From a virus: 33,752 bases of DNA. A program made the position numbers and the translations under genes. Below the pieces are notes generated by a model. It was not told the origin of the DNA. It searched no databases and saw only the letters and a program-made list of their open reading frames with translations. Within the stretch, counting starts at the first letter, position 1. Each line of letters starts with the position of its first letter. Below are positions 3,528 to 30,281 of the stretch, in pieces. The stretch spans positions 1 through 33,752 of the IMG/VR virus record IMGVR_UViG_3300024348_000144, one strand, 5' to 3'.

Positions 3528-4259
3528 TTAAAGTGTTTTAGTTAAAAAATATTGTTTAGGATCAAAGTCCTCAGACTTATAAAACAATTCATAAGCCTGC
3601 GCTGCTCTTTCTACTTTATCTTTGCCACGAGCATAAAACTCTGGAGAGCAATCAAAGATACCTATTTGATGAGTATTTTTATCTATTACAATAAATAACA
3701 TCTCATAACCAAATAGCTTACTGTAAATATAAGCTTGACTGTCGTAATTGTACTTGGATGCGGAATATTTAAACTTCGTGATATCTGCTGTCGTCTTTAA
3801 ATCGATGATCAGCTTTTCATCATGATTTACAATGTCAGCTTTACCTTTCCATAATTGACCTTCAAGCTCTGTAATCTCTGGTTGTTCATATTCAACGTTG
3901 CCTGATCTTATCAAGTCTCTACATACTTCGTTGCTTAGCATCTTTTCTGTCATTAACTCTATTTGATCAACCTCGTGTTTTAATAAACACATTTCACCAT
4001 CTGAGATCTCCTTATAAGCTTTAGTATTTCTAGTTGTAGCTTCTACTATTTTAAAATTCTTAAGTTTTTCAGGTTCAAGAATTGCTGTATGAAAGTATCC
4101 ACCGACTAAAAAAGCTGGTCTGTTAGCCATCTTTTGTCCTAAAGCTAAAGGGTTTGTTAAAAGCGTACTAATGTCTGAATTACTTAAATACTTTTTACCA
4201 AAGTCTCCGTAGTAATTAGTGTCATCTTGTAAAGCTTTTAAAACTTCTTGCTTATTCAT
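3528..4259 (-). CDS. PD-(D/E)XK exonuclease, RecE/PDDEXK phage type
   Basis: A 243-residue nuclease that probably resects double-stranded DNA ends to feed the adjacent annealing protein, as RecE feeds RecT. Visible motifs: YLSNSDISTLL near residues 24-34; GGYFHTAIL with His57, an early helix motif in this family; the core KGKADIV with Asp142; IIDLKTT with Asp153 and Lys155 (the D-X-K catalytic pair); and YDSQAYIYS with Gln175 and Tyr177. It has the length of the stand-alone phage enzymes. The gene sits 1 nt downstream of the ERF gene, so nuclease and annealing protein form the usual two-gene recombination pair, followed by SSB. Confidence 0.88.
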   Translation of the reverse strand: MNKQEVLKALQDDTNYYGDFGKKYLSNSDISTLLTNPLALGQKMANRPAFLVGGYFHTAILEPEKLKNFKIVEATTRNTKAYKEISDGEMCLLKHEVDQIELMTEKMLSNEVCRDLIRSGNVEYEQPEITELEGQLWKGKADIVNHDEKLIIDLKTTADITKFKYSASKYNYDSQAYIYSKLFGYEMLFIVIDKNTHQIGIFDCSPEFYARGKDKVERAAQAYELFYKSEDFDPKQYFLTKTL

Positions 4260-9327: not shown

Positions 9328-9360
9328 TATATTATCTGTTAGTGTTTGTATTTTGTTTGT
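9328..9360 (-). promoter_or_regulatory. Repeated promoter-like element, copy 1
   Basis: On the minus strand this reads ACAAACAAAAT (9360-9350), 13 bp, then GATAATATA (9336-9328). The gene start at 9318 follows at once. Inside the spacer is a second ACAAACA-like heptamer. It is one of seven copies in this region. The spacing of an upstream box and a TAATAT-like box suggests a promoter for the replication operon, but its factor is unknown. Confidence 0.65.
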
Positions 9361-9363
9361 AAA

Positions 9364-9552
9364 TTAATAGCCATTAATACCTTCGTCTTCAATTATAGCT
9401 TCTACATCTTGCCAATGATACCAATCCATTTCTAGCTCTGTCATTGTTTGCTTGATCTCATTTACTTTCTTTTGTTTGCCATTTCTATCACCGACCATAT
9501 AGCCGCCGATAAATAGCACGCACGCTAATGCGATTACTTTTTTTCTGTTCAT
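9364..9552 (-). CDS. Small membrane-anchored hypothetical protein
   Basis: A 62-residue protein with an N-terminal transmembrane or signal-anchor helix (KVIALACVLFIGGYMVG, residues 5-21), preceded by basic residues and followed by a soluble acidic tail with the pair of Trp in DWYHWQDV. A Cys at position 11 lies inside the hydrophobic stretch but does not form a clean lipobox. It lies just downstream of the tmRNA-like RNA and just upstream of promoter-like element 1. It might be a host-envelope or superinfection-exclusion type protein, but nothing proves this. Confidence 0.65.
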   Translation of the reverse strand: MNRKKVIALACVLFIGGYMVGDRNGKQKKVNEIKQTMTELEMDWYHWQDVEAIIEDEGINGY

Positions 9553-9573
9553 AGTTTACGTATTTAAAATTAG

Positions 9574-9652
9574 TGGAGGTGGACAGAATCGAACTGTCTT
9601 CCGTAGTAATTCCTTTGCAGGCTTTTTACTACGTCAAAACCATATCACCCCC
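9574..9652 (-). ncRNA. tmRNA-like tRNA-domain RNA without tag reading frame
   Basis: Read on the minus strand, the 79-nt RNA folds as follows. The acceptor GGGGGTG pairs with CACCTCC over seven pairs, with a G3-U70 wobble, and is followed by discriminator A. A 13-nt D-like loop without stem (ATATGGTTTTGAC) comes next. Helix GTAGTAA/TTACTAC has seven perfect pairs and carries a CCT-GCAA-AGG tip. Then come GGAA and a perfect T-arm GACAG-TTCGATT-CTGTC. The acceptor wobble, the stemless GG..TTTGAC loop and the GGA before the T-arm all match the tRNA-like domain of bacterial tmRNA. The messenger part and pseudoknots are missing: helix 2 is closed by 16 nt. No CCA is encoded. An ordinary tRNA does not fit because no D stem and no 5+7 anticodon arm can be drawn. 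Confidence 0.65.
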
Positions 9653-9655
9653 CAT

Positions 9656-9733
9656 ATGTGCAGTCATTTCCTAAGCGCGGTGCACCACTGTCGTTAAACC
9701 GGTGCGCGTCTTTGTTATTTATTCGCTGCACAT
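9656..9733 (-). ncRNA. Structured spacer between the two tRNA-like RNAs
   Basis: Eight bases at 9656-9663 are the exact inverted complement of 9726-9733 (ATGTGCAG with CTGCACAT). Inside, GCACC (9682-9686) pairs with GGTGC (9701-9705), and CGC with GCG extends that stem across a small bulge. The result is one long branched hairpin that fills the space between the tRNA-like elements at 9574-9652 and 9737-9840. It could be a processing signal, a part of a larger composite RNA, or a third RNA. No reading frame is visible in it. Confidence 0.4.
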
Positions 9734-9736
9734 TTG

Positions 9737-9840
9737 TAACTAGTGAGGATTCGAACCTCATACCCGTCGGTAGCCCATATACACTACAAGCATCAATACC
9801 TTGGTATCGGAGTTGTACAATGTTTTACCTGACCTAGTTG
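9737..9840 (-). ncRNA. tRNA-like RNA element with perfect T-arm, unusual core
   Basis: On the minus strand the 3' end carries a perfect T-arm TGAGG-TTCGAAT-CCTCA and acceptor strand CTAGTTA. CAACTAG at 9840-9834 pairs with it except at the first pair. TAGCTAG at 9850-9844 would pair fully, with a G-U at pair three. The core holds a stemless GTCAGGT-type segment, a long helix TACAA/TTGTA capped by CGATAC-CAAG-GTATTG, and a four-pair hairpin TACC-GACG-GGTA just before the T-arm, like a class II variable arm. A decayed tRNA-Tyr is possible: GATGC-TTGTAGT-GTATA gives a GTA anticodon with four of five stem pairs. A standard cloverleaf cannot be completed, so I call it tRNA-like only. Confidence 0.45.
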
Positions 9841-9882
9841 CCGCTAGCTATTCACTTATGTGTAATCATCGAGCCGACGTCA

Positions 9883-9922
9883 CGCTGTACCTCGTCGTTA
9901 GACTTCTCGCTGTACTTAGTCG
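9883..9922. repeat. Near-direct repeat of 15 bp
   Basis: CGCTGTACCTCGTCG (9883-9897) recurs as CGCTGTACTTAGTCG (9908-9922), two differences in 15 positions and 25 bp apart. The flanking stretch 9841-9956 has no gene I can support. The repeat lies 5' of the tRNA-like RNAs on the same strand and just after the zinc-ribbon gene stops. Its role is unknown. Confidence 0.4.
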
Positions 9923-9956
9923 CCTTTAATCATACCTAATTAAGCTACTCGTCTAG

Positions 9957-10170: not shown

Positions 10171-10203
10171 TATATTATCTGTTAGTAATATTATTTTGTT
10201 TGT
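10171..10203 (-). promoter_or_regulatory. Repeated promoter-like element, copy 2
   Basis: Minus strand ACAAACAAAAT (10203-10193), 13 bp, GATAATATA (10179-10171). It overlaps the last codons of the gene that ends at 10175: the TAA inside GATAATATA is that gene's stop. The next start is at 10145. The spacer is the same as in copy 3, which makes the whole 33 bp identical between them. Confidence 0.65.
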
Positions 10204-12286: not shown

Positions 12287-12319
12287 TATATTATCTGTAT
12301 TAGAAATTATTTTGTTTGT
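12287..12319 (-). promoter_or_regulatory. Repeated promoter-like element, copy 4
   Basis: Minus strand ACAAACAAAAT (12319-12309), 13 bp, GATAATATA (12295-12287). It abuts the T-arm-bearing RNA element at 12320, and the next gene starts at 12281. The likely transcript covers the chain of very short genes down to 11351. Confidence 0.65.
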
Positions 12320-12400
12320 AGACGTGAGTAGAATCGAACTACTATTAACCGTTACGTCTTTTAATCTCACCAGTTTGTGTACCATTCAGGTTCGGTGAGT
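12320..12400 (-). ncRNA. Third T-arm-bearing tRNA-like element
   Basis: On the minus strand a perfect T-arm AGTAG-TTCGATT-CTACT (12343-12327) is followed by CACGTCT. The only good partner is AGACGT at 12359-12354, just 10 nt before the T-arm, which would give an acceptor/T-arm minihelix. Further 5', CTCACC and GGTGAG (12399-12394 with 12371-12366) form a separate six-pair helix with 22 nt inside. No full cloverleaf can be drawn. It may be a tRNA remnant or a processed 3' end signal of the transcript that carries 12424-12651. Confidence 0.4.
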
Positions 12401-20580: not shown

Positions 20581-22137
20581 ATGTCAGACTCAATAGTCAA
20601 AAATCTTAACTTTGGAGACGAAGCTAGAAAACAAGTATTTAAAGGTATAACAAAACTCACAAAAGCTGTTAGCTCCACGTTAGGAGCTAGCGGCAAATGT
20701 GTAATGTTAGAAGATAACACTGGAAGACCAGTGATAACAAAAGACGGTGTAACTGTAGCAGATTCAGTTATATTAAGAGATCCAGTAGAAAATATGGGGG
20801 CTACGCTTTTAAAAGAAGCAGCTCGTAAAACCGTAAGAGAAGCAGGAGATGGTACAACAACAGCAACTGTTTTAGCTCACGCTATATTAGAGGAAGCTTA
20901 TAAGGTATCAGATAAAACAAACTCAAGAGAGTTGAAAGACGGTATAAATAACGCCGTAGATAAGGTTATAGAGTTTTTAAAAACAAACTCAATAGATGTA
21001 CAAGGAGACATGCTTAATCAAGTGGCTTCTATATCTACCAACAACGATAAGTTTTTAGGTTCTATTATTGCAGATGCTTTTAAAGCAGTAGATAACACTG
21101 GTGTAGTAATGATGGAAACCTCGGCAGATGGAAAAACAGAGTTTGAAGTAGTTGAAGGTGTACAATACAATAAGGGAATTACTAATTCTCACTTTGTGAC
21201 TAATAAACAAAATAATTCTGCAGAACTAGAAAATCCACTAGTACTACTAATTGAATCTCCAGTAGAAACAATTAGACAAATTCAATCAGTGCTAGAGTAC
21301 GTAATAAAAAACAATAAACCTTTGCTTATTATAGGCGATTTAGAACAAGGCGTTTTATCAGCTCTAGCAATGAATAAAATGAAAGGCAATATAAAAGTTA
21401 ACGTCGTTAACGCGCCTACATACGGTATAAATAAGAAACAAATGTTAGATGACTTGTCAATGCTAACTAATGCCGTTATTATAAATGAAGATTTAGGTGA
21501 CGATATGGATTTAATCCAGGTTGAACATTTAGGAACGTGTTTGAAAAGTGTTACAACACATGATAGCACTATAATACAAGTTTCAGAATCTTCTGAAGAA
21601 ATAAACAATATAATTAAAGATATAAAAAGTAAACTGCTAACTGAGAAAAATTCAAACGTAGTAATTAGGCTAGAAAAAAGACTAGCTATGTTAGCTGCTA
21701 GAATTGCAATAGTAAAAGTAGGTGCTAACTCTGAAATTGAATTAAAAGAAAAGATGGATAGGGTTGAAGACGCTATCTGTGCTACTAAAGCTGCTGTTAA
21801 AGAAGGTATAGTATCAGGTGGAGGAATAGCTTTACTTAATGCCTCTAATAATATTAAATCAAAAGATATTGGCGAAAAAGTATTACTAAAAGCAATACAA
21901 TCACCCTTTAGAACAATATTAGAGAATGCAGGCATAGAAGTATTTGAGCAAGCACCAGAAAAAGGAGTTGGCTTAGATGTTGTTACAGGAAATATGGTAA
22001 ATATGATTAAATCAGGTATCGTTGATCCTTTACTAGTAACTAAAAGTGCCTTACGAAACGCAGCTTCTGTAGCTACAACAATACTATCAACCGATTGTGT
22101 AATCAATAACTTAAGAGTAGATGAAAGCAATAGGTAG
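20581..22137 (+). CDS. groEL: Phage-encoded GroEL-type chaperonin
   Basis: A 518-residue group I chaperonin. The equatorial ATP site is intact: TLGASGK near 33-39, VITKDGVTVA with Asp55, and AGDGTTTATVLA with Asp90. Asp397 in RVEDAICATKAAVKEGIVSG corresponds to the catalytic Asp398 of E. coli. An apical domain lies between about 190 and 370 (VVEGVQYNKGI, NKPLLIIGDLEQGVLSALAM). The length is 30 residues below E. coli GroEL, and the Gly-Gly-Met tail is missing; the chain ends in DESNR. It was probably acquired for folding large virion proteins or to replace the host chaperonin. Its end overlaps the GroES gene by 17 nt, in the order groEL-groES, opposite to bacterial operons. Confidence 0.97.
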   Translation: MSDSIVKNLNFGDEARKQVFKGITKLTKAVSSTLGASGKCVMLEDNTGRPVITKDGVTVADSVILRDPVENMGATLLKEAARKTVREAGDGTTTATVLAHAILEEAYKVSDKTNSRELKDGINNAVDKVIEFLKTNSIDVQGDMLNQVASISTNNDKFLGSIIADAFKAVDNTGVVMMETSADGKTEFEVVEGVQYNKGITNSHFVTNKQNNSAELENPLVLLIESPVETIRQIQSVLEYVIKNNKPLLIIGDLEQGVLSALAMNKMKGNIKVNVVNAPTYGINKKQMLDDLSMLTNAVIINEDLGDDMDLIQVEHLGTCLKSVTTHDSTIIQVSESSEEINNIIKDIKSKLLTEKNSNVVIRLEKRLAMLAARIAIVKVGANSEIELKEKMDRVEDAICATKAAVKEGIVSGGGIALLNASNNIKSKDIGEKVLLKAIQSPFRTILENAGIEVFEQAPEKGVGLDVVTGNMVNMIKSGIVDPLLVTKSALRNAASVATTILSTDCVINNLRVDESNR

Positions 22138-29459: not shown

Positions 29460-29676
29460 TATTAGAAAAATCAGCATAGGTTCTGACTATAAAAATGATG
29501 CAATGCATTACTCTGTAGGACAACAAGTATACGGAGGACATGAAATATCACATATTTTATTAAGTGAATCTGATGGATCTTATAATATACATATCAAAAA
29601 AAACAACGAGGTATTGCCATGGAAGAAATTTAACTCTAACATGGCTATATCTGTTGAGTACGATTTAGAATATTAA
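29449..29676 (+). CDS. Small conserved virion-region protein
   Basis: A 75-residue protein (MQNNIRKISIGSDYKNDAMH start, then YSVGQQVYGGHEISHILLSE). The IRKIxIGxDYKxAMHYxVGQxV pattern is a recurrent small protein beside the coiled-coil gene in flavobacterial phages. The function is unknown. A beta-sheet-rich fold is likely. The start lies 11 nt inside the upstream gene, and the stop overlaps the next ATG (TAATG). Confidence 0.65.
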   Translation: MQNNIRKISIGSDYKNDAMHYSVGQQVYGGHEISHILLSESDGSYNIHIKKNNEVLPWKKFNSNMAISVEYDLEY

Positions 29677-30281
29677 TGCGTAGTTTATTTGATTTTATTG
29701 TAGAACCCCTAGGGGATAAATACAGTAATACAGTAAAAGTTGGTGATGTAGATTTAGTTGTTAATACTAAAATTGAAAACTGGAAATTTGTAAATAGATT
29801 AGCTAAGGTTATTGAAACGCCAAGGGCATTTAAAACGCCTATAAAAAAAGGTGATATAATTATATTGCATCAAAACGTATTTAGAACCTTTTATGATATG
29901 AAAGGTGTAAAAAAGAAAAGTAGATCTTATTTTAAAGATAATCTACATTTTTGCGCTATAGATCAAATTTATCTATATAAAAATAAATATGGATATCACT
30001 CGTTTGGTGATAGGTGTTTTATTAAACCTATAAAAGATAATCAAGATCTAACGCTAGATAAAGAGCAAAGACTTATTGGTATATTAAAATATGGCAATAG
30101 CTCTTTAAACAAGCTAGGAATAAACCCAGGAGACCTAGTTGGATATACACCTAATGGTGAATGGGAATTTTTAGTTGGCGATAGTCGACTTTATTGTATG
30201 AAATCTAATGATATTGTAATTAAGTATGAACACGAAGGAAACGAAGAAGAATATAATCCAAGCTGGGCATGTAGCAGTTGA
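29676..30281 (+). CDS. Possible tandem GroES-like (co-chaperonin fold) protein
   Basis: A 201-residue protein. Part one reads FIVEPLGD near residue 7, then a gap of about 30, VNRLAKVIETP near 40-50, KKGDIIILHQNVFR near 57-70 and an Ile-Tyr end. This is the order seen in GroES (strand, mobile loop, G-x-V-L-A-V strand, VKVGDIVIF, closing strand). Part two repeats it: GDRCFIKPIKDNQ near 110, LIGILKYGN, INPGDLVGYTPNGEWEF near 150-165, and LYCMKSNDIVIKYE. Two small beta-barrels in one chain would be novel beside the phage GroES at 22121. This rests on pattern only. Confidence 0.5.
   Translation: MRSLFDFIVEPLGDKYSNTVKVGDVDLVVNTKIENWKFVNRLAKVIETPRAFKTPIKKGDIIILHQNVFRTFYDMKGVKKKSRSYFKDNLHFCAIDQIYLYKNKYGYHSFGDRCFIKPIKDNQDLTLDKEQRLIGILKYGNSSLNKLGINPGDLVGYTPNGEWEFLVGDSRLYCMKSNDIVIKYEHEGNEEEYNPSWACSS

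Follow-up and report, generated by a model that had tools for sequence, protein, structure and literature searches.

A phage-encoded RNA that consists of the tRNA-like domain of tmRNA without a tag reading frame belongs to a conserved family and may interfere with host trans-translation

The window, i.e., the whole stretch of 33,752 nucleotides of viral DNA analysed here (IMG/VR record IMGVR_UViG_3300024348_000144), carries genes for primase/helicase, thymidylate synthase, Erf, ligase, a sigma factor, terminase, GroEL and GroES (the GroEL and GroES-like genes at 20581-22137 and 29676-30281, plus strand). The terminase is 62% identical to that of Podoviridae sp. ctfjg026, 44% identical to those of Flavobacterium elemoviruses, and 37-38% identical to those of the Cellulophaga phages phi13:2 and phi38:1/Calle. 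Because these phages have the nearest terminases, a host belonging to the Bacteroidota is likely. Assignment to the crAss-like phages was dropped, as the closest terminases are those of Elemovirus, Pachyviridae and Pervagoviridae phages. The leftward strand, which bears the replication genes, also carries the short RNA gene that is the subject of this report, here called the mini-tmRNA (Table 1). It is flanked by promoter-like repeats ending in CAGATAATATA (10171-10181 and 9328-9338). There are ten sites of this promoter-like element with at most one mismatch, against 1.7 expected, and the element, TACAAACAAAATAAT...CAGATAATATA, precedes leftward operons at 9328, 10171, 11347, 12287 and 13241 (minus strand).

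Table 1. The mini-tmRNA, its parts and the elements beside it (positions in the window)
Feature	Position	Strand	Remarks
Mini-tmRNA, tRNA-like domain only, 82 nt including A-CTA 3′ end	9571..9652	-	RF00023 64.7 bits, fold z -3.5
Acceptor stem, 5′ strand GGGGGTG	9646..9652	-	pairs with 9575-9581; position 3 is the G of G3·U70
Unstemmed D-loop ATATGGTTTTGA	9634..9645	-	tmRNA-like GG.TTTTGAC
Helix 2, 5′ strand CGTAGTAA	9626..9633	-	4/8 pairs with two-sided changes in relatives
Closing loop, 16 nt, AAAGCCTGCAAAGGAA	9610..9625	-	replaces tmRNA pseudoknots and tag frame
Helix 2, 3′ strand TTACTACG	9602..9609	-	partner of CGTAGTAA
T-arm GACAG-TTCGATT-CTGTC	9582..9598	-	100% paired; two-sided changes in 3/5
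Acceptor stem, 3′ strand CACCTCC	9575..9581	-	U70 is the fifth base
62-aa ORF, no family	9364..9552	-	ATG 18 nt 3′ of the mini-tmRNA
Hairpin element TGTGCAG...CTGCACA (TGTGCAGCGAATAAATAAC...CTGCACA)	9657..9735	-	contains GCGAATAAATAAC
Type C tRNA-like RNA: T-arm TGAGG-TTCGAAT-CCTCA, acceptor CTAGTTA, hairpin TACC-GACG-GGTA	9733..9850	-	T-arm and acceptor scan

Read along the minus strand from 9652 to 9571, the mini-tmRNA is GGGGGTG-ATATGGTTTTGA-CGTAGTAA-AAAGCCTGCAAAGGAA-TTACTACG-GAA-GACAG-TTCGATT-CTGTC-CACCTCC-ACTA. An acceptor stem with G3·U70, an unstemmed GGTTTTGAC loop, an 8-bp helix 2 and a T-arm together make up the tRNA-like domain (TLD) of tmRNA. The TLD is in one piece, with both halves contiguous and a closed helix 2, between the strands of which there is neither a tag reading frame nor a pseudoknot, only the 16-nt loop. 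The minimum free energy fold (-28.7 kcal/mol, z -3.5 against dinucleotide shuffles) is the structure described in an earlier note on this DNA, and the G-U at the third acceptor pair and the stemless loop with GG and TTTTGAC reported there are both present. Two details of that description need adjustment: helix 2 is indeed closed by 16 nt but has eight pairs rather than seven (an extra C-G), and the stated length of 79 nt ends at the discriminator base, whereas the model match covers 82 nt. As the 3′ end is A-CTA, trimming by RNase Z and addition of CCA would be needed.

The tmRNA model RF00023 is the sole Rfam 15 match in the whole window (cmscan; 64.7 bits, E 3.2e-23; curated cut-off 47 bits). 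Both ends of the model (1-374) are matched, with about 300 model positions deleted. The tRNA model RF00005 gives no match to the mini-tmRNA even at E<=10, and ARAGORN, run on the window, reports no tRNA or tmRNA there; an ordinary tRNA was accordingly rejected. Also rejected was a split or permuted tmRNA, given the contiguous TLD halves and closed helix 2 (the permuted tmRNA of Maribacter phage Panino, at 3964-4172 of record L003 and matching RF04321 with 62.2 bits, is annotated as a standard tmRNA and is a different thing). Thus, the comparison of the tmRNA and tRNA covariance models, which the earlier note had proposed, favours the tmRNA model as that note expected, and the identification of the mini-tmRNA as a tmRNA TLD that lacks the tag frame is strongly supported.

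A BLAST search with the mini-tmRNA against phage records returned only T-arm similarity to tRNAs and tmRNAs. Many related copies were recovered by searching 2.9 million viral contigs with a gapped pattern, in which a short gap separates the tmRNA D-loop from the T-loop, and by using the ligase as bait. Those most like the mini-tmRNA (class 1) are represented by alignment A1, comprising 15 distinct RNAs, in which 98.8% of cells are paired under the predicted structure and 8/22 pairs have two-sided changes (22 cells); none of 500 shuffles reaches any of the five measures, and structures slid by 1-3 columns are only 43-52% paired. Helix 2 varies by whole pairs (CGTAGTAA/TTACTACG, CGTGATAG/CTATTACG, CGTGGTGT/ACACTGCG), as does the T-stem, so that the compensatory changes suggested as a check were found. 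G3·U70 is invariant (15/15), as is the loop TGGT.TTGACG, of which T11-G13, T14 and T16-G21 are the same in all 15 sequences, which come from at least three phage backgrounds. In the closing loop the CC/GG pairs are preserved, with a G-C swap in one relative, and AAAG..GGAA is nearly invariant. Class-1 RNAs score far higher with the tmRNA than with the tRNA model (71.3 vs 29.8 bits for L098, 70 vs 20.2 for L081, and 63.9 vs 17.4 for L026); L098 and L081 are on contigs of different gene content and encode CCA. A third type, of 85 nt (L173/L174/L177), is found in a phage with siphovirus-like tail genes. Given these several phage backgrounds, TLD-only tmRNAs may have arisen more than once. Judged from these sequence comparisons, the mini-tmRNA is a maintained gene, under selection in a phage clade related to flavobacterial phages.

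Further relatives (class 2) are at the same position near the ligase of phages in which the identity of this protein to that of the window is mostly 54-75%. The TLD-only RNA is upstream of the DNA ligase gene, about 1.5-2.75 kb from its start (median 2117). Class-2 acceptors are GGGCGTG/CACGTCC or GGGAGTG/CACTTCC, the D-loop contains GG but is otherwise relaxed, and the inserts at helix 2 vary greatly, resulting in a total length of 68-180 nt. In the syntenic set, unfiltered for pair 3:70, this pair is G·U in 47/49 and A3-U70 in the other two. Pair 4:69 takes three forms in 44 distinct RNAs (24 C-G, 10 G-C and 10 A-U); the alanine determinant is thus preserved next to a covarying pair. T-stem pairs 50-52 have two to four types each, and the discriminator is A in 44/44.

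Class-2 RNAs have RF00023 scores of 27-45 bits, and since a genuine tRNA-Ala, as control, reaches 39.5 bits with the same model, 35-45 bits alone is no proof of descent from tmRNA. In clan competition the tmRNA model beat the tRNA model at 20/20 loci tested, and direct scores (tmRNA/tRNA) were 36.4/27.2, 38.8/31.0, 36.9/14.5, 37.1/15.4 and 33.5/15.1 bits. The case for descent from tmRNA, rather than from tRNA-Ala, is that class-2 RNAs have no D-arm or anticodon arm, that they occupy the same genomic position, and that there are intermediates (L037, L073, L182) in which the acceptor GGGCGTG is combined with the tmRNA loop GG.ATTGACC.

At E 0.001, RF00023 has a match in 41/50 and 19/31 related or pattern-matched records, with 19 above cut-off; several of the records without a match are cut short on the upstream side of the ligase. 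The cultured relatives Elemovirus, Baltivirus and Gundel have no match above cut-off, which implies that the TLD-only RNA is dispensable outside the clade. In Calle_1 and phi38:1 there is a tmRNA about 360 nt long. The tag that ARAGORN predicts for that of Calle_1 (L002, 3671-4032) ends in VAVGV, not in the usual ALAA-like end, and this prediction may be wrong. In bacteria, a pattern search covering one D-loop variant gave 65 matches in 84,980 genomes, none of which combined the tmRNA D-loop with a paired acceptor bearing G3·U70. All RF00023 matches above cut-off in 119 genomes from the order of a Chryseobacterium (Flavobacteriales) span about 360-410 nt, and the only short match is the tRNA-Ala mentioned above. 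TLD-only genes are missed by standard tools: ARAGORN is silent on the window, and class-2 relatives fall below the Rfam cut-off.

A TLD-only tmRNA in a phage is an already known kind of molecule. The only example in the open-licence papers found is that of mycobacteriophage DS6A: PMC4131195 and PMC11915505, with reference to Mao et al. 2009, portray its tmRNA as little more than a TLD. By those descriptions, it resembles the mini-tmRNA in being a phage-encoded TLD without a tag frame, but is a single actinophage case, whereas the mini-tmRNA belongs to a conserved family in relatives of flavobacterial phages and in other phage contigs. The mitochondrial tmRNAs of jakobids and oomycetes (RF02544) likewise have a tag-less tRNA-like domain with an alanine-type acceptor; however, they are organellar and usually encoded by a permuted gene, whereas the mini-tmRNA is a contiguous one-piece phage gene with a closed helix 2. 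The plastid tmRNAs without a CDS of the Mallomonadaceae, of about 65 bp (two sequences, likened to the mini-tmRNA by their description in PMC11915505 only), are of similar size and have lost the tag frame. With standard tmRNA (RF00023; Calle_1, phi38:1 and Flavobacteriales hosts) the mini-tmRNA has in common the acceptor, D-loop and T-arm, and with that of Calle_1 also the A-CTA end, but it lacks the tag frame and pseudoknots of these 360-410-nt molecules. It resembles tRNA-Ala in G3·U70, discriminator A and T-arm, but has no D-arm or anticodon arm, and the tRNA model fails on it. What is new is the scale, the conservation, the exchange of helix-2 inserts between scaffolds, and the companion tRNA-like RNAs; no description of a clade-wide family with exchanged helix-2 inserts in several phage backgrounds was found in open-licence full texts.

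The mini-tmRNA probably jams or bypasses host ribosome rescue. By analogy with DS6A, its most likely role would be to inhibit host trans-translation as a decoy that is alanylated or binds SmpB. RNase P and RNase Z would release the RNA from the early transcript in the manner of a tRNA; it would gain CCA, be charged by host AlaRS, and bind host SmpB and EF-Tu. Having no resume codon, it would then either titrate SmpB/AlaRS or enter stalled ribosomes unproductively; in either case, host trans-translation would be inhibited during infection. This sequence of processing, charging, binding and inhibition, taken as a whole, is on balance the account to be favoured. As 28 phage records contain no SmpB gene, host SmpB would be needed. 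A DS6A-like TLD molecule is reported, in the accounts given in PMC4131195 and PMC11915505, to inhibit tmRNA strongly whether or not it can be charged, perhaps via titration of SmpB; an effect that does not depend on charging would fit such titration. The near-constant G3·U70, on the other hand, suggests that in these phages charging is of importance too, and the two A3-U70 elements among the 49 syntenic ones count against the charged-decoy explanation. The relaxed D-loop and varied inserts of class 2 argue against pure SmpB titration, which would not require them, and it is chiefly this variety of inserts that simple titration leaves unexplained. With a covarying family conserved in dozens of phages, the question whether phages inhibit ribosome rescue, or use it without tagging, would become a general and testable one, and mini-tmRNAs would be natural minimal TLDs for mapping the needs of AlaRS, SmpB and EF-Tu.

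The inserts, and the RNAs that neighbour the mini-tmRNA, are the basis for two further readings. Among 87 distinct RNAs, part of which were retrieved by a pattern that fixes the scaffold, the scaffold is near-constant but the inserts form about 58 clusters, and 67/87 fold as acceptor, helix 2 and T-arm, compared with 3-12 when the inserts are shuffled. Three of the insert families are shared by A-U and C-G acceptor variants, so modules have been swapped among scaffolds. The GCGAATAAATAAC motif of the hairpin element (Table 1) is common to the helix-2 inserts of L018, L032, L209 and L212; farther upstream, at about 9860-9940 (minus strand), there is a module GTATGATTAAAGGCG...CGGCTCGATGATTAC that L067 and L226 have as their helix-2 insert. 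The type C RNA, whose 5′ acceptor partner is TAGCTAG or CAACTAG, recurs upstream of the mini-tmRNA in many relatives. At 12316-12359 (minus strand) the window also has a minihelix, i.e., an RNA of 44-47 nt with no parts other than an acceptor stem and a T-arm joined by a linker like ATGGTTAAT, and so without an anticodon arm. There are about 30 distinct minihelix copies in 35-40 loci (the list of 36 sequences includes a few parts of type C or tRNA elements), with acceptor stems that strongly covary, mostly without G3-U70.

It is conceivable, though tentative, that all of these belong to a modular small-RNA system, in which an alanine-chargeable tmRNA/tRNA-like scaffold at a fixed genomic position, with exchangeable structured modules at helix 2, would manipulate host translation or ribosome rescue together with the 44-nt minihelices and nearby tRNA-like RNAs. 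More doubtful is the proposal that the TLD is a stable, alanylatable scaffold that displays interchangeable RNA modules instead of helix 2, where the insert would bind a host protein or RNA, while the acceptor and T-arm supply processing and stability. The insert diversity, the persistence of the fold and the recurrence of insert motifs in neighbouring RNAs of the window are consistent with this proposal, but the class to which the mini-tmRNA itself belongs has a short, conserved loop and no large module, no partner is known for any insert, and the scaffold was itself fixed in part of the search.

The decoy reading can also be set against one in which the mini-tmRNA assists the phage. As a minimal rescue RNA of the tag-less mitochondrial type, alanylated TLD with SmpB would take over the nascent chain and free the ribosome untagged, thereby aiding phage translation. 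Mitochondrial tmRNAs without a tag frame have been conserved together with SmpB (PMC11915505), and the tmRNAs retained by Calle_1 and phi38:1 indicate that this lineage uses tmRNA biology; nevertheless this is unlikely, as the one phage-type TLD-only molecule for which PMC4131195 describes an effect inhibits tmRNA, and RNAs of this sort have no known release step. Less likely again is that the mini-tmRNA is mere tRNA punctuation, i.e., a processing signal for RNase P/Z that separates early phage mRNAs. An ATG follows closely here and within 40 nt in 38/82 relatives, and other tRNA-like elements are present within the same operons, but many relatives have tRNA genes or long non-coding stretches directly after the mini-tmRNA, and punctuation would explain neither the constant G3·U70 beside a covarying 4:69 nor the invariant tmRNA D-loop.

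tmRNA genes are frequent integration sites of phages, and full-length tmRNAs are present in hosts and related phages; even so, the degenerate relic raised in the earlier note, or an attP copy of the end of a host tmRNA, has hardly any standing against the compensatory changes, conservation, synteny, the presence of both TLD halves, and the lack of a tyrosine integrase in all 31 records searched.

Some relatives have additional elements beside the mini-tmRNA. L024 (5702-5884, plus strand) has a tandem pair of mini-tmRNAs, with A3-U70 in one and G3-U70 in the other. In L006, L011, L020 and L022, genuine tRNA genes (Gln, Met) are directly 3′ of the mini-tmRNA, and several relatives encode an initiator-like tRNA-Met in which the 1:72 pair is T-A or mismatched.
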